A stretch of 64,000 nucleotides of DNA from positions 62,001 to 126,000 of the forward strand of contig JANXBW010000007.1 in the NCBI GenBank assembly GCA_025060325.1, given 5' to 3'. Numbering within the stretch: position 1 is the first letter of the stretch; each line of letters opens with the position of its first letter. Under the pieces are notes generated by a model. That model was given only the letters and a program-made list of their open reading frames with translations, was not told the origin of the DNA and ran no database searches. Shown here one piece after another: positions 7,044-46,342 of this stretch. The DNA is from Thermoguttaceae bacterium (GTDB lineage Bacteria; Planctomycetota; Planctomycetia; Pirellulales; Thermoguttaceae). Made by a program: the position numbers and the translations under genes.

Positions 7044-8750
7044 ATGGACATCGCTGAAGTTTTGCTGAGAAAAGGACTAGTGGATTCGCAGAAGCTGGAG
7101 CAGGCCAAAGCCGCCGCCGGGGACGGTGCGCGCCTGGACCAAGCGCTTGTCCGCCTTGGCTTGGTCCAGGAGGAGGCTTTGCTACGCGCTTTGGGCGAGG
7201 AGGTGGGCCTCCAGTATGTCGACTTGTCGGAAGTAGAAATTGACCTATCGCTTTTGAAGCGGTTTCCCCTCCGGCTGATCCACCGCGAGGCTATCTTCCC
7301 CATCCAACAGAAGAACGGGGCGATTGTCGTCGCCACGAGTGACCCCTTTAACCTTTATCCTCTGGACGAAGTAAGTGTGGCCACCGGCAAAACAGTTGTG
7401 CCGGTGTTAGCAAGTCGGTCGGAAATCAACAAGCTCATCAAGACCTACCTGGGCGTGGGTAGCGAGACGATCGAGGGACTGCTGGCCCAGGCCCAAGAGG
7501 ACGAAATCGAAGTGCTCGATCAGGGCGAGGGCGACGGTTCGGAACTGTCCCAGATGGCCCAAGAGCCTTCGGTTGTCCGATTAGTCAACGAGATTTTGTT
7601 GGAAGCGCTTGAGTTAGGGGCAAGCGACGTCCACATCGAGCCGCAAGCCTCTGGACTCCAAATTCGTTACCGACTGGATGGCGTGCTCCATCCGCAGCCG
7701 GTGCCGCCGGAGATCACGCGTTTCCAAGCAGCAATCGTTAGCCGCATCAAGATTATGGCCCGGCTCAATATCGCGGAGCGCCGCCTGCCTCAGGATGGTC
7801 GCATCCAGCTGAAAGTAGCCGGCCGGGAGGTGGACATCCGCGTGTCCATCATCCCCACTGTTCACGGCGAAGGGGTGGTGCTGCGTATCCTCGATAAAGG
7901 GGCGATGGAGTTTACCCTCTCCCGGCTGGGGATGAACGATCGGCTCCTGGCGATGTTCCGGGAGCTCATCCGGTTGCCACACGGGATCATTCTGGTCACC
8001 GGCCCGACTGGATCCGGGAAAACCACGACGCTTTATAGTGCGCTCCTGGAGATTCGCAATCCGGGCATCAAAATCATCACGACCGAAGACCCGGTGGAAT
8101 ATCAGTTAGAAGGCATTAGCCAAATCCAGGTCCATCCGAAGATAGGACTGACCTTTGCCCATTCGCTGCGAAGCATCTTGCGTCACGACCCGGATGTCAT
8201 TTTGGTGGGCGAAATCCGCGACCTGGAGACGGCCGAAAATGCCATTCAGGCCGCTTTGACTGGTCACCTTGTGTTTAGCACTTTGCACACCAATGATGCG
8301 GCAAGTGCCTACACCCGATTAATCGACATGGGAGTCGAGCCATTCTTGGTCTCAAGCACGGTGGAGGCGGTGATGGCCCAGCGGCTCGTGCGAACTCTCT
8401 GCGAGCATTGCAAGGAGCCATACCTGCCCAAACCTGAGGAATTGCCGGACGATTTCCCGCGAGAGCGGCTGAAAGATACGGTGATTTTTCGGCCGGTAGG
8501 ATGCAAAGCTTGTCGACATGTTGGCTACAAGGGCCGAGTCGGTCTCTTTGAACTTTTGGTCAGCACCAGCCGGATTCGTCAACTGGCCCACGATCGGGCA
8601 AGCAGTTGGGCTATTCAGCAGGCAGCCGTCGAGGAGGGCATGCGTCTTCTGCGTCAGGACGGTTGGGAGAAGGTCCTGGCGGGGCGAACAACCATCGAGG
8701 AAGTCGTTCGCGTGACCAAAGGCAACGACATAGCTTACGCTCATGCCTGA
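7044..8750 (+). CDS. gspE: Type II secretion ATPase GspE
   Basis: A 568-residue cytoplasmic hexameric ATPase that powers pseudopilus assembly. An N-terminal GspE-N/MshEN-type domain spans roughly residues 1-150. The catalytic part has Walker A GPTGSGKT (Gly320-Thr327), an Asp-box region (TTEDPVEYQ), Walker B (ILVGEIRD) and a His-box (FSTLHTND). A tetracysteine zinc site is present as Cys453/Cys456 and Cys487/Cys490, which is typical of GspE/PilB. AGGA lies 8 bases before the start. It opens a cluster of pseudopilin genes, so GspE is preferred over the type IV pilus homolog PilB; an archaeal-type origin is excluded by the N-domain. It overlaps gspF by 8 bases, which suggests translational coupling. 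Confidence 0.93.
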   Translation: MDIAEVLLRKGLVDSQKLEQAKAAAGDGARLDQALVRLGLVQEEALLRALGEEVGLQYVDLSEVEIDLSLLKRFPLRLIHREAIFPIQQKNGAIVVATSDPFNLYPLDEVSVATGKTVVPVLASRSEINKLIKTYLGVGSETIEGLLAQAQEDEIEVLDQGEGDGSELSQMAQEPSVVRLVNEILLEALELGASDVHIEPQASGLQIRYRLDGVLHPQPVPPEITRFQAAIVSRIKIMARLNIAERRLPQDGRIQLKVAGREVDIRVSIIPTVHGEGVVLRILDKGAMEFTLSRLGMNDRLLAMFRELIRLPHGIILVTGPTGSGKTTTLYSALLEIRNPGIKIITTEDPVEYQLEGISQIQVHPKIGLTFAHSLRSILRHDPDVILVGEIRDLETAENAIQAALTGHLVFSTLHTNDAASAYTRLIDMGVEPFLVSSTVEAVMAQRLVRTLCEHCKEPYLPKPEELPDDFPRERLKDTVIFRPVGCKACRHVGYKGRVGLFELLVSTSRIRQLAHDRASSWAIQQAAVEEGMRLLRQDGWEKVLAGRTTIEEVVRVTKGNDIAYAHA

Positions 8751-9948
8751 ATTTGCGTATGTGGCCCGGGATGCCACCGGGCGGAAAGTGGAAGGGGTAA
8801 TTGAAGCGGCCACGCGGGCGGAAGCAACAGCGGTATTGGCCGGCCGCGGGTTGTTCCCCGTCAGTGTCGACGGTCAATTACAAAGGCCGGAGAAAATCCG
8901 ATTCGGCCGGGTGCCACGTCAGCATCTGGCAACTGTTTATCGTCAACTGGCCGATCTTCTTCGCAACGGCGTGCCGCTCCTGCGGGCACTAGATGTCATT
9001 CGGCGGCAGACCTCGCACCGAGTGATCCGGGACGTCTTGGGGGAGGTTTACCGCCGCGTGGAAGACGGCGCCTCGCTGGGGGACGCGATGGCTCGCTTTG
9101 AGCCGGTCTTTGGCGAGATGGCCGTCAGCATGGTCCGGGCGGGGGGCGAGGGTGGCTTTCTAGAAGAGTCACTTGCTCGCGTAGCAGAATTCACCGCTAT
9201 TCAGGAGGACTTGCGGAAACGCACTCTGGGGGCAATGGCCTACCCGATCCTCCTTGCCATTATGGGCACGTTGGTGACGGTGGCCCTAATGGTCTTTTTT
9301 GTGCCTTGGTTTGAACCTCTGTTTGAAAGTCTCCGTCAACGAAACGAGTTGCCTTGGATTACGGAATTCCTTTTGTCAACAAGTACCCAGCTTAAGCGAT
9401 GGAGCCCGCTTCTGCTAGTGGGCTTAGTAGGGACGGTATGGGGCCTGAGGGCGTGGGCCCGCACAGATGCTGGACGGTGGTGGGTGGACGGATTTAAACT
9501 CCGCCTGCCGGTGGCAGGGAACATCTTCCGCAATTTTGCTGTGGCGCGGTTTTGTCGGGTGCTGGGTACCCTACTTCGCAACGGTGTGCCCATCGTGCGG
9601 GCATTAGAAATCTCCAGCACAGCCACTGGGAACCGATTATTTGCAGTGGCAATCCAGAAGGCGACGCAGGACATCACCGAAGGTCGTCAACTTGCACCGC
9701 CGCTTGCTGCCTCCGGCCATTTCCCGCCGACTGTGGTGGAAATGATCGCTGTGGCTGAGCAGGCCAACACCTTGGATTCGGTGCTTCTTGATATCGCCGA
9801 CACATTGGAGCGGGATACTTGGCGGCTCTTGGAACTAGCCGTGCGACTCCTTGAGCCGGTAATGCTTATGGTCATTGCATCCGTAGTACTTGTGCTGGTG
9901 ATCGCACTTCTTTACCCAATGCTGCGGATGAGCATGGCTATCGGGTAA
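8743..9948 (+). CDS. gspF: Type II secretion inner-membrane platform protein GspF
   Basis: A 401-residue polytopic protein with the two tandem T2SSF domains expected for GspF/PilC. The start MPEFAYVARDATG is the family signature. Domain one (about 60-185) contains the LADLLRNGVPLLRAL motif. Domain two (about 265-390) repeats it as LGTLLRNGVPIVRAL. Membrane helices lie near 165-190, 220-240 and 375-398. GspF sits in the inner membrane and couples GspE ATP hydrolysis to pseudopilin extrusion. Its ATG lies inside the end of gspE, so the two are almost certainly co-translated. Downstream comes a 363-base gap before the first pseudopilin. Confidence 0.93.
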   Translation: MPEFAYVARDATGRKVEGVIEAATRAEATAVLAGRGLFPVSVDGQLQRPEKIRFGRVPRQHLATVYRQLADLLRNGVPLLRALDVIRRQTSHRVIRDVLGEVYRRVEDGASLGDAMARFEPVFGEMAVSMVRAGGEGGFLEESLARVAEFTAIQEDLRKRTLGAMAYPILLAIMGTLVTVALMVFFVPWFEPLFESLRQRNELPWITEFLLSTSTQLKRWSPLLLVGLVGTVWGLRAWARTDAGRWWVDGFKLRLPVAGNIFRNFAVARFCRVLGTLLRNGVPIVRALEISSTATGNRLFAVAIQKATQDITEGRQLAPPLAASGHFPPTVVEMIAVAEQANTLDSVLLDIADTLERDTWRLLELAVRLLEPVMLMVIASVVLVLVIALLYPMLRMSMAIG

Positions 9949-10311
9949 AGATGACGGAGGGATTGGCGCTGTAAATCCGCCGCCAAAATGGACCCTTTAC
10001 GCGACCATGCCCAGGTACGTGCCAATAGGGGTTGTGCCCGCCGGGAAATGCCCCACTGGTGAGTGATGAGGTGGTGTCTTTAGCTTCCCCGGGGTGGGTT
10101 GAAAGTTTGCTTGGAGCAAGTTCTTAAGCCAGGTTGTCGACACCAAGGAGCGGGCGTAGAAATCCCCGAGCAAGATAATTTGGGACTCTCGCGCAAAAAG
10201 CATCTCGAAAGACGGTACGCTGGTGGTGGCTCCCAAGGGCAACAAACCGCGTGTTCATCCGATAAGATCCGCATTCGTTCCAATAAAGGACAGTCGACAG
10301 GGGGAAGTGGG
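9949..10311. other. Intergenic region gspF-gspG
   Basis: The gspG frame stays open back to 10099, but the extra residues show no family similarity and the normal prepilin leader is already long from 10312. No separate gene, hairpin or RNA was recognised. Confidence 0.4.
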
Positions 10312-10830
10312 ATGACCGCTCAAATCCACATAGGATCCGGCAATAAGTTGCTGGAGGCTTCCCAGGTCAGGCGGCATTACCGGAAGGCCAATTCGTGCCC
10401 CCCAAACCGCCGGAGAAAGCCAGCCGCCTTTACGCTCGTCGAAGTGCTCCTTGTGCTTGTGATTTTGGTGATCATCGGCTCGATCGCCGTCACCGCGTAT
10501 GGCCCTATTCAGCGGCGGGCTTATATCAACGCCGCCCGGTCCCAGATTAAGGCCTTCAAGACACCGTTAAATGCGTACCAGTTGGATGTGGGCGACTACC
10601 CATCAAGCGCCCAGGGACTGGAAGCCCTCCGCTATCCGCCGGGTGATCTCCCCGATCCTACAAAATGGCAGGGTCCCTATTTGGATAGCGATGTGCCCCT
10701 CGATCCCTGGGGGAATCCTTACCGGTACGAATATCCAGGCCGCTATGACCCGACTCAGCCAGATATTTGGTCGGCCGGGCCCGATGGCATAGACGGTACG
10801 GATGATGATATCGGCAGTTGGCAGCAATAG
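10312..10830 (+). CDS. gspG: Major pseudopilin GspG
   Basis: A 172-residue major pseudopilin. A long basic leader of 39 residues ends at PAA, followed by Phe40-Thr-Leu-Val-Glu44 and a hydrophobic helix. Cleavage would be after Ala39, so the usual Gly at -1 is replaced by Ala. Glu at +5 is kept. The globular part has the GspG hallmarks: LDVGDYPSSAQGLEAL, GPYLDSDVPLDPWGNPY and the calcium-site tail SAGPDGIDGTDDDI. The ATG at 10312 was chosen because AGGGGG lies shortly upstream; an in-frame start at 10099 would give an implausible leader of about 110 residues. It forms the shaft of the secretion pseudopilus. Confidence 0.92.
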   Translation: MTAQIHIGSGNKLLEASQVRRHYRKANSCPPNRRRKPAAFTLVEVLLVLVILVIIGSIAVTAYGPIQRRAYINAARSQIKAFKTPLNAYQLDVGDYPSSAQGLEALRYPPGDLPDPTKWQGPYLDSDVPLDPWGNPYRYEYPGRYDPTQPDIWSAGPDGIDGTDDDIGSWQQ

Positions 10831-10899
10831 CTTCCCAGACCGGGTTGGTGGAGCACATCGGGTGCAGCCGAATGAATCTCTTCCGAATGACGGTGCCCC

Positions 10900-11646
10900 A
10901 TGGTAGGCGGAAACTGGGCAAAGAAACCGCCGGCATGCTTCTGCGCTCCTCGCTGGGGCTGGTCCGCTTGTAAGCGTTCTCGGGTAACAGGTCCGGTTGA
11001 TTTACGGAAAGTTCCAACCGGCTTTACACTCCTTGAGGTCCTCCTTGTTCTGGCTCTTATGGTTGTTTTTGGGAGCATGGCATGGCCCGCTTTGCGCTGG
11101 ACACTGGGGGCGCAGCGCCTGCGAGCGGCGGCGGAACAAATCCGGGTGGAGTGGACGCGTACCCGATTGGCGGCGATCAAGAATCAAGTGCCCTATGTTT
11201 TTCGCTACGTTCCCGGCGAAAGCGTTTACACAATCGAGCCAGTAACTGGGGCGATGTCCACTTTCGGAAGCTTTCAAGGTTCGTGGGACATGCCCGTCGG
11301 TTATGCTGGGCAAATGGGGGATATTACAGCGGGAACTTTCGGGGCCGGACCGACTAGTTCGCAAGGTGCGGAGCGCTCTCTGCCGGAAGGAATCGTCTTC
11401 TTTTCGGGAACAAGCAACTTGGACCTCCGCGGTCAGACGATCCTGGAAGAGTGGTCCGCCCTCACAGGCAACTATGCGGCCGGCTGGATGGAGAGCGTGA
11501 TCTTCTACCCGGACGGCACAGCCACAGATGCCGAGGTGGTCCTCGAAAGTGACCAAGGTCGGCAGGTAAGCGTGTGGATCCGCGGGCTGACAGGAGTGGT
11601 CCAAGTGGGACCAGTGGTCCGGGCGGAGACCACATCCGGCTTGTAG
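10900..11646 (+). CDS. gspH: Minor pseudopilin GspH-like
   Basis: A 248-residue type IV pilin-like protein. The leader is 41 residues, with cleavage predicted between Gly41 and Phe42 (PTG|FTLLEV) followed by a hydrophobic helix. The next part, LRAAAEQIRVEWTRTRLAAIKNQV, is typical of GspH/FimT minor pseudopilins, and the rest is beta-rich. In the type II system GspH joins GspI, J and K at the tip or along the pseudopilus. The leader contains four cysteines or tryptophan-rich segments that are unusual, so the true start could lie further in. Order in the cluster (after gspG, before gspI) supports the call. Confidence 0.85.
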   Translation: MVGGNWAKKPPACFCAPRWGWSACKRSRVTGPVDLRKVPTGFTLLEVLLVLALMVVFGSMAWPALRWTLGAQRLRAAAEQIRVEWTRTRLAAIKNQVPYVFRYVPGESVYTIEPVTGAMSTFGSFQGSWDMPVGYAGQMGDITAGTFGAGPTSSQGAERSLPEGIVFFSGTSNLDLRGQTILEEWSALTGNYAAGWMESVIFYPDGTATDAEVVLESDQGRQVSVWIRGLTGVVQVGPVVRAETTSGL

Positions 11647-11867
11647 ATGAAAAACGAGACCGTTTACCGGAAGCTCAAGTAATAGTCTTGATTGTTGTCA
11701 ACGGGAGCAAGTACCAAAGGGGTCCGGCAAGACGAAGATGGGGTCGGACGACCGCTGAATGACCCAATTCCGCCCTCAGGAGTGGGCAACTGAATTTGCC
11801 AACAGACGTGTATATCCACACTTTGCTATCCAGCTTTTAGCCGAGAATTTGCCCGAGGCCTGCGGCG

Positions 11868-12587
11868 ATGCCGGGAGTATTCCGTCGCTCCCAATCAATT
11901 AGAGGTGCGTTCTCGCTACTTGAGGTGATCTTGGCGCTGGCCATCCTCGGAGGGGCGCTTGCCGTGCTTGGCGAAGTGGCTCGGATGGCCATGCGCAATG
12001 CCGCCCGAACACGCGACTTGGCCCAGGCTCAGCTTCTTTGCGAAGCAAAATTGGCCGAAATCCTTGCCGGCGTGGAACCGCCCGAACCTATCACCGGCGC
12101 CCCAATGGAGACAGGCCAGGTTCCGGATTGGCTCTACTCCATCGACGTGGCAGCCCTTGATGTCGAGGGCCTTATAGAAGTTCGCGTGACGGTCGAGCAA
12201 GACCTTCCACCGGAAAAGCGGCCAGTCCGGTACACGTTGGTCCGCTGGATGGTCGACCCGCTCAGTGTCACCGAGGTGGACTTAGTGGCGGAAGCAGAGG
12301 CGGCCTCCGAACAGGCATCCACCGGCCAGCAAAGAACTGGCACACAGTCCGGCTCAAGCCAGACGGGGACAAGCGGGACCCCAGGAGGTGGTTCAGGCAC
12401 ACCGGCGCCATCCGGTGGACCTTCAACCGAACCTTCGGGCGGCGCGATGCCGGGCGGACCGACCCCCAGCACACCCGGCTCAGCCCAGCCACCGCAAGGA
12501 CCAAATATGCCTCCTTCTGGCACACCGGGTGGTGGGCCCACTGGACCTGGTGAAAGTCGCCCGGAACAACCTTTCCGTGGGCGATAA
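11868..12587 (+). CDS. gspI: Minor pseudopilin GspI-like with Pro/Gly/Ser-rich tail
   Basis: A 239-residue pseudopilin. The short leader ends at RGA, with cleavage predicted between Ala14 and Phe15 (FSLLEVILALAIL), Glu at +5, and a hydrophobic helix. ARTRDLAQAQLLCEAKLAEILAG (about residues 45-67) matches the GspI helix in which the QLLCEAKLAE-like motif is typical. The globular domain is short (to about residue 140). The last 95 residues are low-complexity Gly/Pro/Ser/Thr/Gln, which is not a feature of proteobacterial GspI. It may be a flexible extension at the pseudopilus tip. There is a 221-base gap before it and 223 bases to gspJ. Confidence 0.82.
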   Translation: MPGVFRRSQSIRGAFSLLEVILALAILGGALAVLGEVARMAMRNAARTRDLAQAQLLCEAKLAEILAGVEPPEPITGAPMETGQVPDWLYSIDVAALDVEGLIEVRVTVEQDLPPEKRPVRYTLVRWMVDPLSVTEVDLVAEAEAASEQASTGQQRTGTQSGSSQTGTSGTPGGGSGTPAPSGGPSTEPSGGAMPGGPTPSTPGSAQPPQGPNMPPSGTPGGGPTGPGESRPEQPFRGR

Positions 12588-12609
12588 GGGGCCTGGTTAG
12601 TAGCCCTTT

Positions 12610-12753
12610 GTGCCGGGATCAAGGAGGGGAGGCATATTAAGCAAGCTGCTGGAAGAGGCAATCGAAAACAACGGAGTCGAAACGGCGGCATTAGGAACCA
12701 GTGAGATTGAGACAATTCAGATTGGGGTCGCGAGGATCCTGCGGTGCTCGTAG
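12610..12753 (+). CDS. Candidate 47-residue small protein between gspI and gspJ
   Basis: An open frame bounded by TAG at both ends with a GTG at 12610. Residues 9-47 read like an amphipathic helical protein (ILSKLLEEAIENNGVETA, then SEIETIQIGVARIL). A very strong ribosome-binding site (AAGGAGGGGAGG, 12621-12632) lies inside the frame, just before codons ATA and TTA at 12634. A shorter product with a non-standard start is therefore possible. No family was recognised. It may be chance, a remnant, or a real small gene. Confidence 0.25.
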   Translation: MPGSRRGGILSKLLEEAIENNGVETAALGTSEIETIQIGVARILRCS

Positions 12754-12810
12754 CTCCGTAAGTGCTCCAAACCAACCATCCGCGATGGCCTGCGGAAGGT
12801 GACGAGAAAG

Positions 12811-14001
12811 ATGAATGTCCATTTCGCGAGGCAAACCCAGGGAATGTGCCCAAGGTGCATGGCTCAAAGAGGCTTCACACTGCTTGAACTGGTATTAGCC
12901 TTCGGCCTACTGGTAGTGGTCCTGGGGGCGCTTGCTTTGTCCGTGGATCTCCATTTACGGGTATCGCAGCTTGGTAGGCAACGGGTGGAAGAAGCCCAGC
13001 TTGCGCGGGTAATTCTCCAGCGGATAGCCGACGACATTCGAGGTGCGGTGCCCCCGCAAACGGCAGATTTCGAGTCTCTTGCAAAAACCCTTTCCAGCCT
13101 ATTGGAAGGGGTGGAAACCTTGCCGCTTTCGGACGCGGGGCTAACCGAATCGGAGTCACAAGGGCAATCGGGTCAACAAACTTCCGGAGGTTCTAGTCAG
13201 CAAGGAACCAATCGGTCCTCAGGCAGTCAAAGTTCCGGGCAAATGTCAACGGGTAGTGGTGGCAGCATGTCAACCGGCTCAAGTGGCAGCGGAGAGACCA
13301 GCTCTGAAAGCGGTGAATCGGAAGAGGGGGAGGAGGAAACTACGGAAACCATCCTCGGCGTTCCGCGGTCTGTACCTGGGCTTTACGGTGGGCCAGATTG
13401 GCTTCAAGTGGACGTAAGCCGAATCCCCCGACCGGACGAATATCAGGCCTTTTGGCCCACGGGTATAACCGGCAGCGAAGGCTGGGAACTGAATCGCGTG
13501 AGCGAAATGAAAACTATCCTCTATGGCCTAATGATCCCCGGAAGCACCATGAGCATGTCCCAGACTTTGGTCAGCACGGATGCCTGGGGGCTGTACCGCG
13601 ACGAAGTGGACCGCGCCGCCGGAGCATTGGCCAGCGAGCAGAATGTGCTGGACCAAAAAGTCCGGAGTGTCGGCCCGCTTGCTCCAGAAGTCGTGTGGCT
13701 TGAGTTCTGGTACTTCGATGGCATCCAGTGGTATGACTCATGGGACAGCGAGGCGCAGGGTGGCCTTCCGGTGGCAATTGAGGTCATTATCGGCCTAGAT
13801 ATGTCCCGAAGCCCAGCCGTGGCAAACGCTGCGGCCACTGAGCTTGCTGGCTCCGAGCCGGTCCTCAATGAACCACAGACATTGTACCGGACGGTTATCT
13901 ATCTCCCAGTAGCACAGCCGACAGCAAGCCAGACGGCGAGCACGGAAGAGTTGTCAACAGGTTCGGAAACATCCGAACAATCGAGCTCGGGGTCTCAGTG
14001 A
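12811..14001 (+). CDS. gspJ: Minor pseudopilin GspJ-like with Ser/Gly-rich insert
   Basis: A 396-residue pseudopilin counted from the ATG at 12811; GTG at 12799 or internal Met codons at 12844 and 12859 are alternatives. Cleavage is predicted at RG|FTLLEL, followed by a hydrophobic helix and a segment (ARVILQRIADDIRGAV) typical of GspJ. About 75 residues of Ser/Gly/Gln/Thr-rich low complexity (near coordinates 13140-13350) interrupt the globular domain. The later part (TILYGLMIPG, VVWLEFWYFDGIQWYDSWD, LPVAIEVII) matches the GspJ beta domain, where a VxxLxFRYYDGxxWxxxWD-like motif is typical. The C-terminus is again Ser/Thr/Glu-rich. GspJ forms the pseudopilus tip with GspI and GspK. Confidence 0.85.
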   Translation: MNVHFARQTQGMCPRCMAQRGFTLLELVLAFGLLVVVLGALALSVDLHLRVSQLGRQRVEEAQLARVILQRIADDIRGAVPPQTADFESLAKTLSSLLEGVETLPLSDAGLTESESQGQSGQQTSGGSSQQGTNRSSGSQSSGQMSTGSGGSMSTGSSGSGETSSESGESEEGEEETTETILGVPRSVPGLYGGPDWLQVDVSRIPRPDEYQAFWPTGITGSEGWELNRVSEMKTILYGLMIPGSTMSMSQTLVSTDAWGLYRDEVDRAAGALASEQNVLDQKVRSVGPLAPEVVWLEFWYFDGIQWYDSWDSEAQGGLPVAIEVIIGLDMSRSPAVANAAATELAGSEPVLNEPQTLYRTVIYLPVAQPTASQTASTEELSTGSETSEQSSSGSQ

Positions 14002-14134
14002 GTTGGCAGGAGGGTTGGATGGTTTAGGCACATTCATAGCTCAATCGACAGAAAGTGGTCCGTTCTCCACTTAAAGAGCAGCGTAGTTTATTCGTTAACA
14101 GTCCGCAGATGTAAACGGATGGATCTAACTTAGA

Positions 14135-15829
14135 ATGCCACGGTCACAGCTGCCATCCTCAAAACGACCAAGAGCCAACAGGCGCTGGCGGGCCATGGTG
14201 CTTGTGCTCGTCCTGGCCGTGGTGCCGGTCTTAAGCCTCGTAGCGCTGACTTATTCTGAGCTGATGTTAACGGAGTATGAGGCGGCGATTATTTCCGGCA
14301 GGCGCGGCCAAGCACGGGAAATTGCCCTTTCCGGCCTGGATGCCGTCAGGATGTTCTTAACGCTGGATGCGGATACCCAAGCCCAAGCCGGCGGAAGTTA
14401 CGACAATCCCTCGTTGTGGTCGGAGAAGATCGTTGTCGACGATAGCGATCCGCGGGGGCGCGGCCGATTTACGATCATCGCTCCGAATCTCCAAGATGGT
14501 GACTACGCAGGCGTTCGTCATGGAATCCAAGACGAATCCACTCGGCTCAACCTTAACGCCCTGTTAGTAATCGAACAGCGCTTCCCGGGTGCGGGAAGAC
14601 AACTTCTGATGGCCTTGCCAGGGATGACCGAGGACGTGGCGGATGCCATCTTGGACTGGATCGATAGCGACGACGAGCCTCGCGAATTTGGCTGCGAGGC
14701 CGAGTACTATCTTTCCCTTGACCCTCCTTACCAGCCCAAAAACGGACCGTTGGAGACGATCGAGGAACTCCTGCTTGTTCGTGGCGTGACTCCGGAGCTT
14801 CTTTTCGGGGCAGACACTAACCGCAATGGTGTGCTCGATTCGGGCGACGCAGATCCGACCAGTTTGGCGGAACTTCAGGGCTTGGGGGAAGAGGCTTACC
14901 TCGGCTGGGCAAGCTACCTGACACTTTGGAGCATGGAGCTTAACTTAAAGCCGGACGGCACACCGAAAATCTACGTCAACAAAGACGACCTGGAAACCCT
15001 TTATTCGGAAATCGAGGAGGTCTTGGGAAGCACCTGGGCGACTTTCATTGTCGCCTACCGTCAGCAGCAACAGTCTAACGAAAGCGGAGGCGCCGGGAGT
15101 CAGGAAAATAACCCTCAAAATGATCAACAAGAAGGCGACGATGAAGGCGGGGGGCGCTCCGGAGGTTCCTCCTCGACCCAAGTAGAGACCGAACCTTCCG
15201 GGGAAATTGATTTCACTCGCCCGGCCCGAACCCGGATCCGCACCATCCTCGATTTGATCGGTGCCCAGGTCCGCGTCCAGTATGCTGACCAAGAAGAAAC
15301 GAAGACGTTGGCTTCCCCATGCCCCAATGAACCGGGGGCGATAGCCACGCAGCTACCCCTGCTGATGGAAAACTTGACCGCGGTCGATTCGCCGGTGCTA
15401 TTTGGTCGCATCAACATCAACTTGGCACCCCGGGCAGTCTTGCGGGGCATCCCCGGCATGAGCGACGAAATTGTCGAGGAGATCATTGCCCGACGTCCGC
15501 AAGATCCGTCTCAGGCGGATATCCTTTATCGATACGAAACTTGGATCCTCTGCGAAGGGATCGTCACTTTGGAGGAAATGAAAACCCTGATGCCGTTTAT
15601 ATGCGCGGGCGGATGTATCTACAGAGTCCAAGTGGTGGGCTACTACGACGGGGGCGGGCCGTTTTCCCGGCTTGAGGCCATTTTGGATGCAAGTAAGTTG
15701 CCCCCGCGGATTCTCTTTTGGCGCGACCTCAGCCATTTGGGCCTCGGGTGGACACCCCAGGGTGCATCGGCTGGTTTTATTGGCTGGTCGGGAGCTAGCG
15801 GGTGGGACCGGACTATAAACCGTTATTAG
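14135..15829 (+). CDS. gspK: Type II secretion minor pseudopilin GspK-like
   Basis: A 564-residue GspK family protein, larger than the usual 300-350. A basic N-terminus (ANRRWRAM) precedes a membrane helix (VLVLVLAVVPVLSLVAL, about 20-38) and a GspK-like helix (EAAIISGRRGQAREIALSGLD). A helix-hairpin-helix-like part contains LNLNALL, LPGMTEDVADAILDWIDSDDEPRE, YYLSL and PLETIEELLLVRGVTPELLFG, which are signature elements. A second such element (INLAPRAVLRGIPGMSDEIVEEIIARR) lies near residue 430. About 45 residues of Gln/Asn/Gly/Glu low complexity separate the two halves. GspK caps the pseudopilus. The prepilin cleavage site is poorly formed. Confidence 0.88.
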   Translation: MPRSQLPSSKRPRANRRWRAMVLVLVLAVVPVLSLVALTYSELMLTEYEAAIISGRRGQAREIALSGLDAVRMFLTLDADTQAQAGGSYDNPSLWSEKIVVDDSDPRGRGRFTIIAPNLQDGDYAGVRHGIQDESTRLNLNALLVIEQRFPGAGRQLLMALPGMTEDVADAILDWIDSDDEPREFGCEAEYYLSLDPPYQPKNGPLETIEELLLVRGVTPELLFGADTNRNGVLDSGDADPTSLAELQGLGEEAYLGWASYLTLWSMELNLKPDGTPKIYVNKDDLETLYSEIEEVLGSTWATFIVAYRQQQQSNESGGAGSQENNPQNDQQEGDDEGGGRSGGSSSTQVETEPSGEIDFTRPARTRIRTILDLIGAQVRVQYADQEETKTLASPCPNEPGAIATQLPLLMENLTAVDSPVLFGRININLAPRAVLRGIPGMSDEIVEEIIARRPQDPSQADILYRYETWILCEGIVTLEEMKTLMPFICAGGCIYRVQVVGYYDGGGPFSRLEAILDASKLPPRILFWRDLSHLGLGWTPQGASAGFIGWSGASGWDRTINRY

Positions 15830-40665: not shown

Positions 40666-41152
40666 GATTCGTGACGTGTACCGAACAAACCTCTTCTCAC
40701 GGCGAAAAGCTGTTGTTAAAGTGAACCACCGGGTTAAATCGCTAAGCTGGCATGACCGGCCGGAGAGTGTTAATCATCCCCCGCCGGACAAAGTGGTGCT
40801 CAAGCCATTACCCAATAAGCTGGTACCTTCCGTCGGCAGTAGAACTTCTCAAGCTTCCCGTACCAAGTATGCCTAAACACCGCACCCACCAACCGGTTAT
40901 TCGGCTTTCGCCTCTTAAAGGCCTAATAGGTCGGGCAAGCCTTTTGGCCGGATAGTAGGCCGGCAATCCCAAAATTAGAATAGCTTATTCGAACTCCTTC
41001 CTTTCAAGCACACTGTGGCCGGCAGTTTGGCGGCGGGAAACCCGCGGCTGGCAGCGCAGGCGCCGCCGGCTTTCCAGCAGGCGTTCGGTTTGGCAGCCCA
41101 GAATGCAGCTTGAAGTCTAGCAGTCCTTTCTTCTACCAAGGAGGAAGTGCCA
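40666..41152. other. Intergenic region
   Basis: A 487-base gap between divergent genes. Some GC-rich inverted repeats occur near 41020-41080. AAGGAGGA (41138-41145) is the ribosome-binding site that decides the sulfatase start. No RNA gene was recognised. Confidence 0.4.
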
Positions 41153-42706
41153 ATGTCGCGCTTAGGTTTGCCGTCCCTAACCGTCAATGGGCACTTGGGG
41201 AAAAATATTCTCGTATGCAGTACACGCGTTTTTTCGGCCACAGTTCTCCTGGCAACGATTCTGTTAGGTATTCCAAGCTTTAGCGCGGGAGCCTCCCAGC
41301 CCGCCGCCGGCAAACCAAACATCTTGTTTATCGCCATTGACGACCTTAACGATTGGACCGGCTTTCTTGGAGGACACCCTCAGGCGCAAACCCCTCATTT
41401 GGACGGTTTGGCCAAGCGGGGAATGGTCTTCACGCGGGCCTATTGTGCGGCTCCAGCGTGCAACCCTTCCCGAACGGCTATTCTGACGGGGATTATGCCG
41501 GCCAGTTCCGGTGTCTACCACAACAACAATCCCTGGCGACCGCAGCTGCCGGAGGCCGTAACCTTATTCCAACATTTTCGTCAACACAACTACAAAGTTT
41601 TTGGCGGCGGAAAGCTCTTCCATGGCCCATTCAACGATGTGCTCTCGTGGGAGATGTACTGGGCCAGGCCGGGTGACCCCATGCCGCCAGGCCGGCCGCT
41701 CAATGGCATTCCCAATGCGGCCCAGTTTGACTGGGGCCCACTTGATGTGGACGATGGAGCGATGGGCGACGCCAAATTGACGGACTGGGCCATTTGGTTC
41801 CTCCAACAAGAGCACGACCGTCCATTCTTCCTTGCAGTCGGCTATATTCGCCCGCATTTACCGTGGTATGTTCCCCGGCCTTACTTCGAGCGGTTTCCCC
41901 TCGCCAATGTTATCCTTCCGCGCGTTAAAGAAAATGACCTCGACGATATTCCGCCGCTTGGGCGTAAGATTGCCAATCCCCAAGGCGATCACGCCCGCGT
42001 ATTAGCCACCAACAATTGGCATCGCGCCGTCCAAGGATACTTGGCTAGTATCGCCTTTGTGGACTACCAGGTGGGGCGATTACTCCAGGCCTTTTATCAA
42101 AGCCCTTATGTGGACAATACGATCGTCGTCCTTTGGGGTGATCACGGTTGGCATCTGGGACAAAAACAACACTGGCGAAAATTCGCTCTTTGGGAGGAGG
42201 CCACCCGCGTTCCCTTGATCATTGTTGTCCCTGGGCTCACAAAGCCCGGGAGTCGCTGCGGCCGAACTGTCAACCTGGCCGATCTTTACCCCACGCTGTG
42301 CGAATTGGCAGGCCTGCCTATCCCACCCCAAGTGGAAACCCGCAGCCTGGTGCCTCTCTTGAAAGATCCGGAGCATCCCTGGGACCGGCCGGCAATCACT
42401 ACGCACGGCTACATGAACCACGCAGTGCGGTCGGAGCAGTACCGGTACATTCGCTACAGCGATGGGAGCGAAGAGCTTTATGACCACGAAGTCGACCCGC
42501 TTGAGTGGACAAACTTAGCGAACGATCCCAAGTACCAACAAATCAAGGATGAATTGGCCAAATGGCTGCCCCAGGTCAACCGCGAGGAAGGCCCACGGGT
42601 ACAGGAGAGGCAACCAGCCCGCATCCGCAGGCAGCGCAAAACCGCTGACCTCCCGCCCGCTATTCGAGCTTATTTGGCTCAGGAATGGTTTGGCGAAATA
42701 CCGTGA
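41153..42706 (+). CDS. Secreted cysteine-type sulfatase
   Basis: A 517-residue exported sulfatase. ATG at 41153 was preferred over GTG at 41147 because of AAGGAGGA 7 bases upstream. A signal peptide (VFSATVLLATILLGIPSFSA) precedes the domain. PNILFIAIDDLNDW supplies metal ligands, and the active-site motif is Cys103-Asn-Pro-Ser-Arg107, whose Cys must be converted to formylglycine. FFLAVGYIRPHLPW and VVLWGDHGWHLGQKQHW complete the site. The sequence resembles the iduronate-2-sulfatase-like branch. It would release sulfate from sulfated polysaccharides outside the cytoplasm. The next gene carries a domain related to the sulfatase-maturating enzyme FGE, though without catalytic cysteines. Confidence 0.94.
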   Translation: MSRLGLPSLTVNGHLGKNILVCSTRVFSATVLLATILLGIPSFSAGASQPAAGKPNILFIAIDDLNDWTGFLGGHPQAQTPHLDGLAKRGMVFTRAYCAAPACNPSRTAILTGIMPASSGVYHNNNPWRPQLPEAVTLFQHFRQHNYKVFGGGKLFHGPFNDVLSWEMYWARPGDPMPPGRPLNGIPNAAQFDWGPLDVDDGAMGDAKLTDWAIWFLQQEHDRPFFLAVGYIRPHLPWYVPRPYFERFPLANVILPRVKENDLDDIPPLGRKIANPQGDHARVLATNNWHRAVQGYLASIAFVDYQVGRLLQAFYQSPYVDNTIVVLWGDHGWHLGQKQHWRKFALWEEATRVPLIIVVPGLTKPGSRCGRTVNLADLYPTLCELAGLPIPPQVETRSLVPLLKDPEHPWDRPAITTHGYMNHAVRSEQYRYIRYSDGSEELYDHEVDPLEWTNLANDPKYQQIKDELAKWLPQVNREEGPRVQERQPARIRRQRKTADLPPAIRAYLAQEWFGEIP

Positions 42707-42943: not shown

Positions 42944-45900
42944 ATGGATCATCTCGGTAAATTTCGGTCTGGCCGGCTGAAGGGGTTCGTGTTCACATTT
43001 TCGCTTGCGATTCTTCTCTTGAAAGTGGCATCTCTTAGCGCCCGGTGCGACGAAGTGAACTCTTCCCCCAGCCGGGTTGGTGATCACCTAATTTATCAGA
43101 TGTCAACTCTTGGGCGAGCTATCGATGATCTTGCCGCAGCATATCCGCCCGAGGAGTTCCCCGCCTACCAACTAAAGGCCGAGCTAGAGGACCTAAAAGA
43201 GAAGCTTATCTTGCTACCGGCAGCCCGTGATCAAGTCGCCGCAAGATTCCGCCAAGTTCAGCAGGAATACCTTCGGCATCATCCGCTTCTTAAGGGGGAG
43301 AAATTGCTTATTGTGAAGCGCCGCCCTCGTTTCTTGTCGCCCGAAGGCAAACCCACTCCTCGTGGACCGGCCGGCCTTGAGCTGGCAATGCCCTCCAATC
43401 ACGAGTGCAATTCGTCCTTAGCCCGTATCGGGTATGACAATGAAATTGCCATTTTAGAGCTCATTTCGCCGGAAGGAGTGCTGCGAACACTCTATCGGCC
43501 TGAGCACAGCGGCTATGTGGGGGAAATCGATCTTCACTACTCTGGCACGCGGTTTTTGTTTACTCAGTCCGACCCGGAGAGCTGGAAGATTTGGGAATTT
43601 GACCTTTCGACCGGTAAGGTTCGGCAGGTGACGGACCTGCCGCCAGATGTGGATGCGATGGACCCTTGCTACCTACCCGACGGAGGGATCATTTTCGGGT
43701 CGACGGCGTGTTTTCAAGCCGTTCCATGTTGGCACGGGTTAAAAAGGGTGGTCAACCTTTACCGACTTGAGCCGGACGGGCGGACAGTGCGGCGACTGTG
43801 CTTCGATCAGGATCATGACCTCCATCCGGTTCTCCTACCCAATGGGCAAATCCTTTATAACCGCTGGGATTACACGGGAATTAGCCATATTTACTTACGG
43901 CAGCTTATGGTGATAAATCCGGACGGTACGGGCCAGCGGGCTGTTTACGGTAGTAACTCCTGGTTTCCCAATGCGCTTTATTTTGCCCGTCCTATGCCGG
44001 GTGACAGTCAACGCTTTGTGGCAATCCTGTCGGGCTATCATGGCCCCCACCGGATGGGTTGGTTGGTGCTTGTGGACATCTCCCGCGGTTGGTTTGAGGA
44101 GACTGGCATCGTGGCCCGAATTAGCGGTCAGGGACAGCCAGTGGAAAAAAGAATTGTGGATGAACTCGTCAAGGACGACTGGCCGCGATTCCTCCACCCT
44201 TACCCGCTCAGTGACAAGTACTTCCTGGTGGCTTGTCAACCAAAGCCGGGCGCTCCCTGGGGCATCTATTTGGCCGACGTGTTCGACAATCTCATCCTCG
44301 TCAAAGAGGAACCGGGCTGGGCACTGCTTGAACCAGTGCCCTTGCGTCCCCAACCCCTCCCGCCGGTGTTGGCCTCCCGGGTCAACCTGCGTGATCAAGA
44401 GGCGACGGTTTATCTCCACGACATTTACCGCGGCCCGGGACTTGCCGGAGTCCCGCGTGGCACGGTGAGGAAGCTCCGCATCGTTGCCTACCACTTTGGC
44501 TATCCGGGATTGGCTGGGCCGGACCTCATCGGTTACGGCGGGCCTTGGGAGGCCATGCAAATCTTAGGAACGGTTCCCCTGCTCGAAGATGGTTCGGCGA
44601 TCTTCCGCGTGCCGGCCAATACCCCCCTGGCTATTCAAGCCCTCGATGCGGAAGGAAAGGCCGTGCAACTCATGCGAAGTTGGTTTACAGCGATGCCGGG
44701 GGAGAAGGTTTCTTGCGTCGGTTGCCACGAACCCCCAAGCGAAGTACCAACGGCCGTTGCCGAAGCCGCCTTCAGCCAGCCAGCGGCCATCGAGCCTTGG
44801 TACGGTCCGCCGAGGGGGTTTTCCTTTCTCCGGGAAGTTCAGCCCGTGCTCAACAAATACTGTGTCTCCTGTCATAATGGCCGGGACGCACCGCTTGACC
44901 TAAGACCCCCAGAGGAAGTGCCCCACTATCGGGGATTGTCCGTCTCCAAGCTTGCCCGGGAAAGGATGCATCCGGCCGTCGCCACCCTTACAGGTGGCGT
45001 TGTTAAATTTGCCCCGGCATACGAGGCACTCCTCCCTTACATTCGCCGCGTGGGTATCGAGGATGATGTGTCACTTCTTTTCCCGGGGGAATACCACGCC
45101 GACACAAGCCCCCTTGTGCAACTGCTTTATGGGGGCCACTACGGCATTTGGCTTGATGGGGAAAGTTGGGATCGGCTTGTTACCTGGATTGATCTTAACG
45201 CCCCTTGCCACGGCCGCTGGAGCGAGGTAGTTCCCATCCCGGACGGTATGCACGAAAAGCGAAAGGAGATGTGGGAGCGATTTGGCGGCCCGGCTCAGGA
45301 TCCGGAAATCCTTCCCATCAATTTGCCGCAACCCGACTTTTGCGCACTACCCCGCAGTGACGCGCCCTCTCAGCCGGACGACATGGCTGTGGACTTTCCT
45401 CTAACGCCTGCTCAAGCGGAAGCAAGGCAAAAAGCCCTGGACGAAACGTGTCGTCACATTCCGCTGCCAGGGGCTCGACCCCTTGTGTTTGTGCGCTTGC
45501 CGCCGGGGGAATGTTTAATCGGGGACCGAGCCGGCTGGGAGGATGAAAAACCGCGGCGGCAATTTCGCTTGGAGAAACCGCTGTGGATCTCCGCTTTTGA
45601 GATTACCAACGAGCAGTTCCGGCTCTACTCCCCCGGTCACACTCCCCGGTACTACCAAAAGCGGCATGCTCGTGTTGACGACCCAGGTCTGCCACTAGAT
45701 CATCCCGACCAGCCAGTGGTGCGGGTCTCCTGGGAGGAAGCGATGGGGTTTTGCCGGTGGCTAAGTGAGAGGACGGGGCTTCACTTTGACTTACCCACAG
45801 AAGAGGAATGGGAGTATGCGGCCCGGGCGGGTAGCGATTCTCCATTTTTCTTTGGCGGCTTAGATACCGATTTTTCGCCTTACGCCAATCTGGGCGACAA

Positions 45901-46342
45901 AACTTTTGGCGTAGGGCTTTTGCCCCAAATAACCGGCGGCCTGGAACACCTGATCCGGGAAGGAGGACCGCTAGCCGAGGCGCGCTTTGACGACGGGCAC
46001 TCGGTAACTGCCCCCGTAGGATCGTTTCGTCCCAACGCTTGGGGACTTTATGACGTCCACGGCAATGCCGCCGAGTGGACAAAATCGCCGTATGTTCCCC
46101 GCGGGCTACCGGAGACAGACACTTCGGACCCGGCGCTGCCAGAAAACCCAAGCCACTTGTCCACTCGCCGGGTTGTGCGAGGGGGTTCTTTCTTCACTCC
46201 GCCGCGATGGGCACGCGCGGGCATTCGCCGCGGCCACTGGCCTTGGCAACGTGTCTTCGACGTGGGCTTCCGCGTCGTCCTGCGAGATGAAGAAGCCACC
46301 GACACCAAGGAAGCGCGAAAACCGTTTGCCCAAGAACCGTAA
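42944..46342 (+). CDS. HzsA-like propeller / dihaem cytochrome c / FGE-like fusion protein
   Basis: A 1132-residue exported protein. A signal-like segment (GFVFTFSLAILLLKVASLS) opens it. Residues about 150-420 contain PD40-type propeller repeats (YSGTRFLFTQSD, YLPDGGIIFGST, LLPNGQILYNRWDY). A region to about 600 resembles hydrazine-synthase-alpha-related proteins and ends with SCVGCH (Cys591-His595); a second haem site is Cys640-Val-Ser-Cys643-His644. Residues about 846-1120 form an FGE/SUMF1-like domain (ITNEQFRLY, VSWEEAMGFCRWLSERTG, PTEEEWEYAAR, YDVHGNAAEW, VVRGGSF, DVGFRVVL). At the two positions where FGE enzymes have catalytic cysteines (human Cys336/Cys341) there are Thr1085 and Ala1090. 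It lies 237 bases after the sulfatase. The redox partner and reaction are unknown. Confidence 0.85.
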   Translation: MDHLGKFRSGRLKGFVFTFSLAILLLKVASLSARCDEVNSSPSRVGDHLIYQMSTLGRAIDDLAAAYPPEEFPAYQLKAELEDLKEKLILLPAARDQVAARFRQVQQEYLRHHPLLKGEKLLIVKRRPRFLSPEGKPTPRGPAGLELAMPSNHECNSSLARIGYDNEIAILELISPEGVLRTLYRPEHSGYVGEIDLHYSGTRFLFTQSDPESWKIWEFDLSTGKVRQVTDLPPDVDAMDPCYLPDGGIIFGSTACFQAVPCWHGLKRVVNLYRLEPDGRTVRRLCFDQDHDLHPVLLPNGQILYNRWDYTGISHIYLRQLMVINPDGTGQRAVYGSNSWFPNALYFARPMPGDSQRFVAILSGYHGPHRMGWLVLVDISRGWFEETGIVARISGQGQPVEKRIVDELVKDDWPRFLHPYPLSDKYFLVACQPKPGAPWGIYLADVFDNLILVKEEPGWALLEPVPLRPQPLPPVLASRVNLRDQEATVYLHDIYRGPGLAGVPRGTVRKLRIVAYHFGYPGLAGPDLIGYGGPWEAMQILGTVPLLEDGSAIFRVPANTPLAIQALDAEGKAVQLMRSWFTAMPGEKVSCVGCHEPPSEVPTAVAEAAFSQPAAIEPWYGPPRGFSFLREVQPVLNKYCVSCHNGRDAPLDLRPPEEVPHYRGLSVSKLARERMHPAVATLTGGVVKFAPAYEALLPYIRRVGIEDDVSLLFPGEYHADTSPLVQLLYGGHYGIWLDGESWDRLVTWIDLNAPCHGRWSEVVPIPDGMHEKRKEMWERFGGPAQDPEILPINLPQPDFCALPRSDAPSQPDDMAVDFPLTPAQAEARQKALDETCRHIPLPGARPLVFVRLPPGECLIGDRAGWEDEKPRRQFRLEKPLWISAFEITNEQFRLYSPGHTPRYYQKRHARVDDPGLPLDHPDQPVVRVSWEEAMGFCRWLSERTGLHFDLPTEEEWEYAARAGSDSPFFFGGLDTDFSPYANLGDKTFGVGLLPQITGGLEHLIREGGPLAEARFDDGHSVTAPVGSFRPNAWGLYDVHGNAAEWTKSPYVPRGLPETDTSDPALPENPSHLSTRRVVRGGSFFTPPRWARAGIRRGHWPWQRVFDVGFRVVLRDEEATDTKEARKPFAQEP

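Follow-up and report, generated by a model that had tools for sequence, protein, structure and literature searches.

The open reading frame at 42944..46342 of the window, by which we mean the whole stretch of 64,000 nucleotides analysed here from a Thermoguttaceae bacterium, encodes a protein in which the complete domain plan of HzsA, the alpha subunit of hydrazine synthase (HZS), is predicted to be joined to an additional C-terminal domain of the FGE family. Such fusions form one clade and keep their form from planctomycetes to Bacteroidota of the human gut; we found no description of them in the literature, and they represent a form of HZS-like alpha protein not described earlier. We propose, with a probability of roughly one half, that the fusion protein acts as alpha subunit in an exported HZS-like tetrahaem c-type cytochrome complex, the added domain being a cap for recognition or docking. 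Most likely it is neither a hydrazine synthase nor an FGE. Probably it serves a redox step in the use of sugars rather than the making of hydrazine. HZS-like proteins are widespread outside anammox bacteria and have been taken as signs of new anammox lineages; in the fusion clade they are connected with sugar genes, with a haem partner that recurs and with an FGE-like module, and the presence of this clade in culturable gut Bacteroidota opens the reaction to deletion and growth tests. The first-pass annotation of the window recognised the combination of domains and missed the beta-gamma partner, the single origin, the neighbourhood of lyxose-isomerase, DhaK and LsrF genes in other phyla, and the loss of Tyr591, all of which are presented below.

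Domain architecture and haem sites

The gene is a single uninterrupted frame from the ATG at 42944 to the stop at 46342 (1132 aa), and its parts are listed in Table 1. Pfam searches, alignment and structure prediction agree with the initial description of a propeller, two CxxCH sites and an FGE-like domain in one polypeptide. The probable Sec signal at the N-terminus is consistent with the two c-type haem sites.

Table 1. Features of the fusion gene and its upstream neighbour (positions in the window; residues of the encoded protein)
Feature	Position	Strand	Basis
FGE-capped HzsA-like (alpha) protein	42944..46342	+	frame, Pfam domains, model superposition
N-terminal hydrophobic segment, residues 1-35, probable Sec signal peptide	42944..43048	+	inspection of sequence
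TolB/HzsA-like beta-propeller, residues ~117-470	43292..44353	+	5c2v_A aligned over 117-764; TolB chains up to 470
HZS_alpha middle domain, residues 506-596	44459..44731	+	Pfam PF18582, E 2e-27
Haem alpha-I site, C591-V-G-C-H595	44714..44728	+	CxxCH invariant in 82/82 aligned fusion relatives; compared with 6 anammox-type HzsA
Haem alpha-II site, C640-V-S-C-H644	44861..44875	+	invariant in 82/82
His732, candidate distal ligand of haem alpha-II	45137..45139	+	kept in 81/82; gapped alignment with HzsA
FGE/SUMF1-like (C-type-lectin fold) domain, residues 849-1112	45488..46279	+	PF03781, E 4e-43; model Z scores
His899 in FDPxHDS-type motif	45638..45640	+	81/82 in fusions
Thr1085 and Ala1090, FGE copper-cysteine positions	46196..46213	+	motif alignment, 82 relatives
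Neighbouring sulfatase with CNPSR motif, 237 bp upstream	41147..42706	+	Pfam PF00884, E 1e-47; association weak

The AlphaFold2 model of the fusion, built on 74 sequences (residue = model number + 35), has a mean pLDDT of 90.1 and a pTM of 0.89, and the latter value suggests that the orientation of the FGE-like domain is fixed relative to the rest of the protein. According to VIA-align, residues 117-764 superimpose on 5c2v_A (HzsA) with Z 32.8 (560 aligned, 2.9 A), while the C-terminal part matches TvpA (Z 28.7), PvdO (Z 28.5) and FGE (Z ~24), the PvdO/FGE superposition spanning residues ~830-1115. The model thus confirms the predicted propeller, HZS-alpha fold and FGE fold, and bears out the structural assignment of the first-pass annotation; taken together, the superpositions indicate a complete HzsA plan extended by one FGE-family domain.

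Like HzsA from Kuenenia stuttgartiensis (PDB 5C2V), the fusion possesses a propeller, a middle domain with haem alpha-I, a C-terminal domain with haem alpha-II, a candidate distal His and a beta-gamma partner. It differs in the absence of Tyr591, in sequence (~22% identity), in the extra C-terminal FGE-like domain, and in not being restricted to anammox bacteria. All six anammox-type HzsA sequences contain the motif CxGCHDGSY, with Tyr591 as the proximal ligand of haem alpha-I. Most fusions have CVGCHE, and the place of Tyr591 is taken mostly by Asn, next most commonly by Ser (found in the window protein four positions after the haem alpha-I His), and never by Tyr, in agreement with the absence of Tyr591 reported for HZS-like clades I-III (PMC12758564). 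His732 aligns with a conserved HzsA His near the distal ligand of haem alpha-II, a correspondence of moderate quality as the alignment is gapped; in clade I HZS-like proteins, by contrast, the distal His is reported to be absent (PMC12758564).

It is because Tyr591 is absent that we do not regard the fusion as a hydrazine synthase. The HzsA fold and the HzsBC-like partner would fit the synthesis of hydrazine, or hydrazine-like N-N chemistry, by bacteria that do not perform anammox, and hzsABC-like genes of Phycisphaerae have indeed been proposed to indicate possible novel anammox (PMC10732223). However, the Tyr found in all six anammox-type HzsA compared is missing, the fusion scores 41.6 bits against the NCBIfam HzsA equivalog, for which the cut-off is 800, the beta-gamma family has no conserved Cys in the gamma-Cys165 region, and among the bacteria that carry fusions are inhabitants of gut and rumen, with sugar genes next to the fusion in gut Bacteroidota. 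On the missing Tyr591 and the scores we reject a true hydrazine synthase, and we consider this and the related chemistry extremely improbable.

Spread and single origin of the fusion

Scanning species genomes returned 523 relatives, of which 80 were kept, nearly all of them full-length fusions, from Planctomycetota, Verrucomicrobiota, Hydrogenedentota, Lentisphaerae, Kiritimatiellae, Armatimonadota, Spirochaetes and Sumerlaeota. A search of plasmid records added Parabacteroides distasonis, Phocaeicola massiliensis and Aureibacter tunicatorum (two copies), although the P. distasonis record, which bears mfd, may be chromosomal. Identity is 35-36% in the three Bacteroidota fusions aligned. The annotation "SUMF1/EgtB/PvdO family nonheme iron enzyme" is attached to three of the four Bacteroidota fusions; the record for Phocaeicola is unannotated. 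The N-terminal extensions of long relatives mostly show no clear Pfam family, save for NPCBM in Parabacteroides and a weak DUF4960 in two.

A tree of 102 HZS parts (quick method, midpoint root) has a branch (SH-aLRT 100) that sets the 74 fused rows apart; anammox-type HzsA is found on a different branch. The domain-architecture search across planctomycetes located the fusion in 13 of 294 Planctomycetota genomes. The first-pass annotation had named, as a finding that would refute it, homologs with separate haem and FGE-like genes, the fusion being an annotation or assembly artefact. Chance, an artefact or a frameshift is ruled out by end-to-end conservation across many genomes and phyla; relatives with only the FGE or only the alpha part are known, but all fused rows fall into one clade, and separate genes as the norm were not seen. 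With HZS-like clades I-IV (PMC12758564; Phycisphaerae, PMC10732223) the fusions share the pairing of an alpha gene with a fused beta-gamma gene, and with clades I-III also the missing Tyr591; they differ from them in forming a clade of their own and in the co-occurrence of a lyxose-isomerase-like cupin. Term searches of these two papers found no mention of an FGE-like domain.

A recurring beta-gamma partner

An HzsBC-like dihaem protein of ~590-650 aa is encoded near the fusion in 15 of 79 other loci. Eight of these 15 partner genes lie on the same strand as the fusion with gaps of -48 to 57 bp, and two copies run off the end of a contig. The partner matches the 5C2V sequences of HZS beta (1e-33) and gamma (9e-25), and its match to NCBIfam hydrazine_BC is far below the cut-off. 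A model of the copy from the window genome superimposes on 5C2V beta with Z 44.2, 11 above the next propeller; the matches listed by VIA-align for this model are propellers only, and the gamma part is assigned from sequence.

The beta-gamma gene is present in 13/13 fusion genomes versus 19/281 others among the 294 Planctomycetota (Fisher 2e-14), and versus 10/38 genomes with only unfused HZS_alpha (2e-6), as well as in 19 of 20 fusion-bearing genomes reached via loci of other taxa; these figures should be read with the caveat that the profiles were built from fusion neighbours, which favours partner-like sequences, and that related genomes are not independent. In two genomes (G019 and G192) the fusion is the sole HZS_alpha protein, and the beta-gamma gene adjoins it. 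Three loci from Phycisphaerales/Phycisphaerae (L017, L019, L023) have an operon-like arrangement of fusion, unfused HZS alpha and beta-gamma, i.e. two alphas and one beta-gamma. Up to 36 HZS_alpha proteins per genome are found beside one to three beta-gamma proteins in G145, G277, G160 and others. Many alphas may thus share one beta-gamma core, which may serve several alphas with different recognition modules. With such an excess, the beta-gamma of some genomes may really belong to another alpha; in G167, a close relative, the alpha gene near beta-gamma is an unfused one.

In the window the fusion gene stands alone, with the sulfatase upstream on the same strand and the next downstream gene on the other strand. 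The beta-gamma gene of this genome is unlinked, on another contig (C55:89921-91795), and its product is 48% identical to the L019 copy. The same contig carries, at 128-136 kb, another HZS locus, which is clade-I-like and whose beta-gamma has 10 haems. This locus (L129:6550-13906) encodes an alpha protein, a protein of 574 aa where the published arrangement has its FG-GAP gene, and a beta-gamma with eight extra haem motifs.

From the fold and the partner linkage we infer a physical complex in which the alpha chain (propeller, haem alpha-I domain and haem alpha-II domain) would work with the beta-gamma chain, itself predicted to consist of a seven-bladed propeller and a MauG/peroxidase-like dihaem domain. 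Electrons could move, in one direction or the other, between the dihaem domain of beta-gamma and haem alpha-I, and at haem alpha-I a small organic molecule, most likely derived from a sugar, would be oxidised or reduced outside the cytoplasm. The C-terminal FGE-like domain, as a non-copper module with the C-type-lectin fold, might hold the substrate or dock a partner beside the haem module.

The FGE-like domain and the sugar-gene neighbourhood

The FGE-like domain belongs with PvdO, FGE and PorK/GldK (PF03781), with which it shares the C-type-lectin FGE fold, the GGS motif region and the retained family motifs, and from which it is set apart by its fusion to a dihaem module, its His899 motif and the lack of the copper cysteines. 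By the motif GGS-x-x-[C]-x4-[C], Thr1085 and Ala1090 occupy the positions of Cys336 and Cys341 of human FGE, exactly as first annotated. In the relatives position 1085 is Asp in 74/82, position 1090 is Ala in 53, Cys in 23 and Ser in 5, and both Cys occur together in 0/82. The original view that an HzsA-like dihaem module is fused to an FGE-like fold unable to act as a canonical copper FGE therefore holds. The weight that it placed on the lost cysteines, on the other hand, was too great: they are absent, but among FGE-family domains of six genomes only about 1 in 22 has both (the one at L167), so that their absence is the ordinary state of the family, and the Cys-less PvdO, with the same fold, is tied to an oxidation. 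The missing pair rules out canonical copper FGE chemistry and does not speak against catalysis as such. In one further genome (G040) we noted about 60 FGE-family domain hits, often paired within 1000-aa frames.

A sulfatase with a CNPSR motif directly upstream (Table 1) raises the question of whether the protein activates or otherwise serves this enzyme, making formylglycine outside the cytoplasm. In favour of this, the genome, which is 95.6% complete, has about 30 sulfatase genes, several with a CxPSR motif, and only three FGE-family domains, none of which has the full copper-cysteine pair, and a search of it for an anaerobic sulfatase maturase gave nothing above the cut-off. Against the idea stand the absence of both copper cysteines from the fusion, its occurrence in so few Planctomycetota genomes, and the fact that sulfatases make up just 5 of 105 nearest neighbours of fusions. 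The absent Cys pair and the neighbour count rule out sulfatase activation as the main role, and we regard the idea in general as very improbable.

It is also conceivable, though in our opinion unlikely, that the FGE-like domain is itself a PvdO-type catalytic oxidoreductase working without copper cysteines, with the haem module serving just to supply electrons or take them away. In structure PvdO ranks among the best matches, and it is a strong sequence match as well; the final oxidation of dihydropyoverdine depends on it, the purified protein has no detectable cofactor, and it may need an electron transport partner (PMC6206403). His899 and the Asp at position 1085 of most relatives would provide conserved features for such an activity. 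But the NCBIfam PvdO equivalog gives 99.7 bits, with a cut-off of 500, and the domain resembles TvpA, which is a variable protein, and PorK, a ring lipoprotein of the T9SS, to about the same degree, hence the fold cannot tell catalysis from binding. As to TvpA, an assignment of the protein as a variable protein of a DGR was considered and rejected, as no reverse transcriptase family was found among the window genes scanned.

PorK/GldK chains are the top sequence matches of the domain (E 3e-19; 4e-38 by profile), which would fit a purely structural or docking module, e.g. one for the cell envelope, whose ligand pocket is not used. This we find doubtful, given that the family motifs are retained and that His899 is nearly invariant in the fused clade (one Bacteroidota fusion lacks its equivalent); among the FGE-family domains sampled in six genomes the motif FDPxHDS, present in most fusions, is seen only in fusions. 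Moreover, paralogs carry modules of carbohydrate-binding type: of the seven other HZS_alpha proteins of the window genome scanned (those outside the clade-I-like locus), four have Laminin_G_3 or F5/8 type C (discoidin) modules. Together with the NPCBM module of the Parabacteroides fusion, this makes the earlier suggestion that the FGE-like fold binds a glycan or a partner plausible. A similar pairing is known from PSCyt cytochromes, some members of which have carbohydrate-binding modules and which are often encoded near sulfatases (PMC5615132). The likeness lies in the combination of a cytochrome module with carbohydrate-binding modules; the difference is that here the fold is that of HZS_alpha, and PSCyt1-3 domains had no Pfam match in the protein at E 0.01.

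If the protein is, as we prefer, an alpha subunit capped for recognition or docking, the genes found near a part of the family make sugar-derived compounds the best lead to its substrate. A cupin that matches D-lyxose/D-mannose isomerases occurs near fusions; in Planctomycetota it is present in 7/13 fusion genomes versus 0/281 others, and it is found in Bacteroidota too, a co-occurrence pointing to sugar metabolism. Several members start with a twin-arginine-like segment, so the cupin may be exported. Some fusions, mostly those of Hydrogenedentota and Phycisphaerae loci, have genes similar to DhaK, DhaL and LsrF nearby, and an IclR gene is near the fusion in three loci; beyond beta-gamma, cupin, Dak, LsrF and IclR we found no strongly conserved neighbourhood. 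The P. distasonis run reads IclR, beta-gamma, chorismatase-like protein, cupin, fusion, CcsA/ResB, small protein, DhaK, DhaL, LsrF, propeller, MFS and GH130. Its chorismatase-like protein (L197:8986-10077) is FkbO/Hyg5-like with a RidA-like end, and has a counterpart in Aureibacter pAT2. A more specific scheme, which we put forward only tentatively, would be a new extracytoplasmic tetrahaem sugar oxidoreductase of gut Bacteroidota and PVC bacteria, in which an FGE-capped alpha, beta-gamma and a periplasmic lyxose-isomerase-like cupin act on a sugar or sugar-derived ketone, and the product passes to DhaK/DhaL and LsrF. In the window genome, where the beta-gamma gene is unlinked and the cupin was not found, the assignment to sugars is weaker than in Bacteroidota or Hydrogenedentota. 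Elsewhere in the window, positions 7044-15829 contain type II secretion genes (T2SSE, T2SSK).
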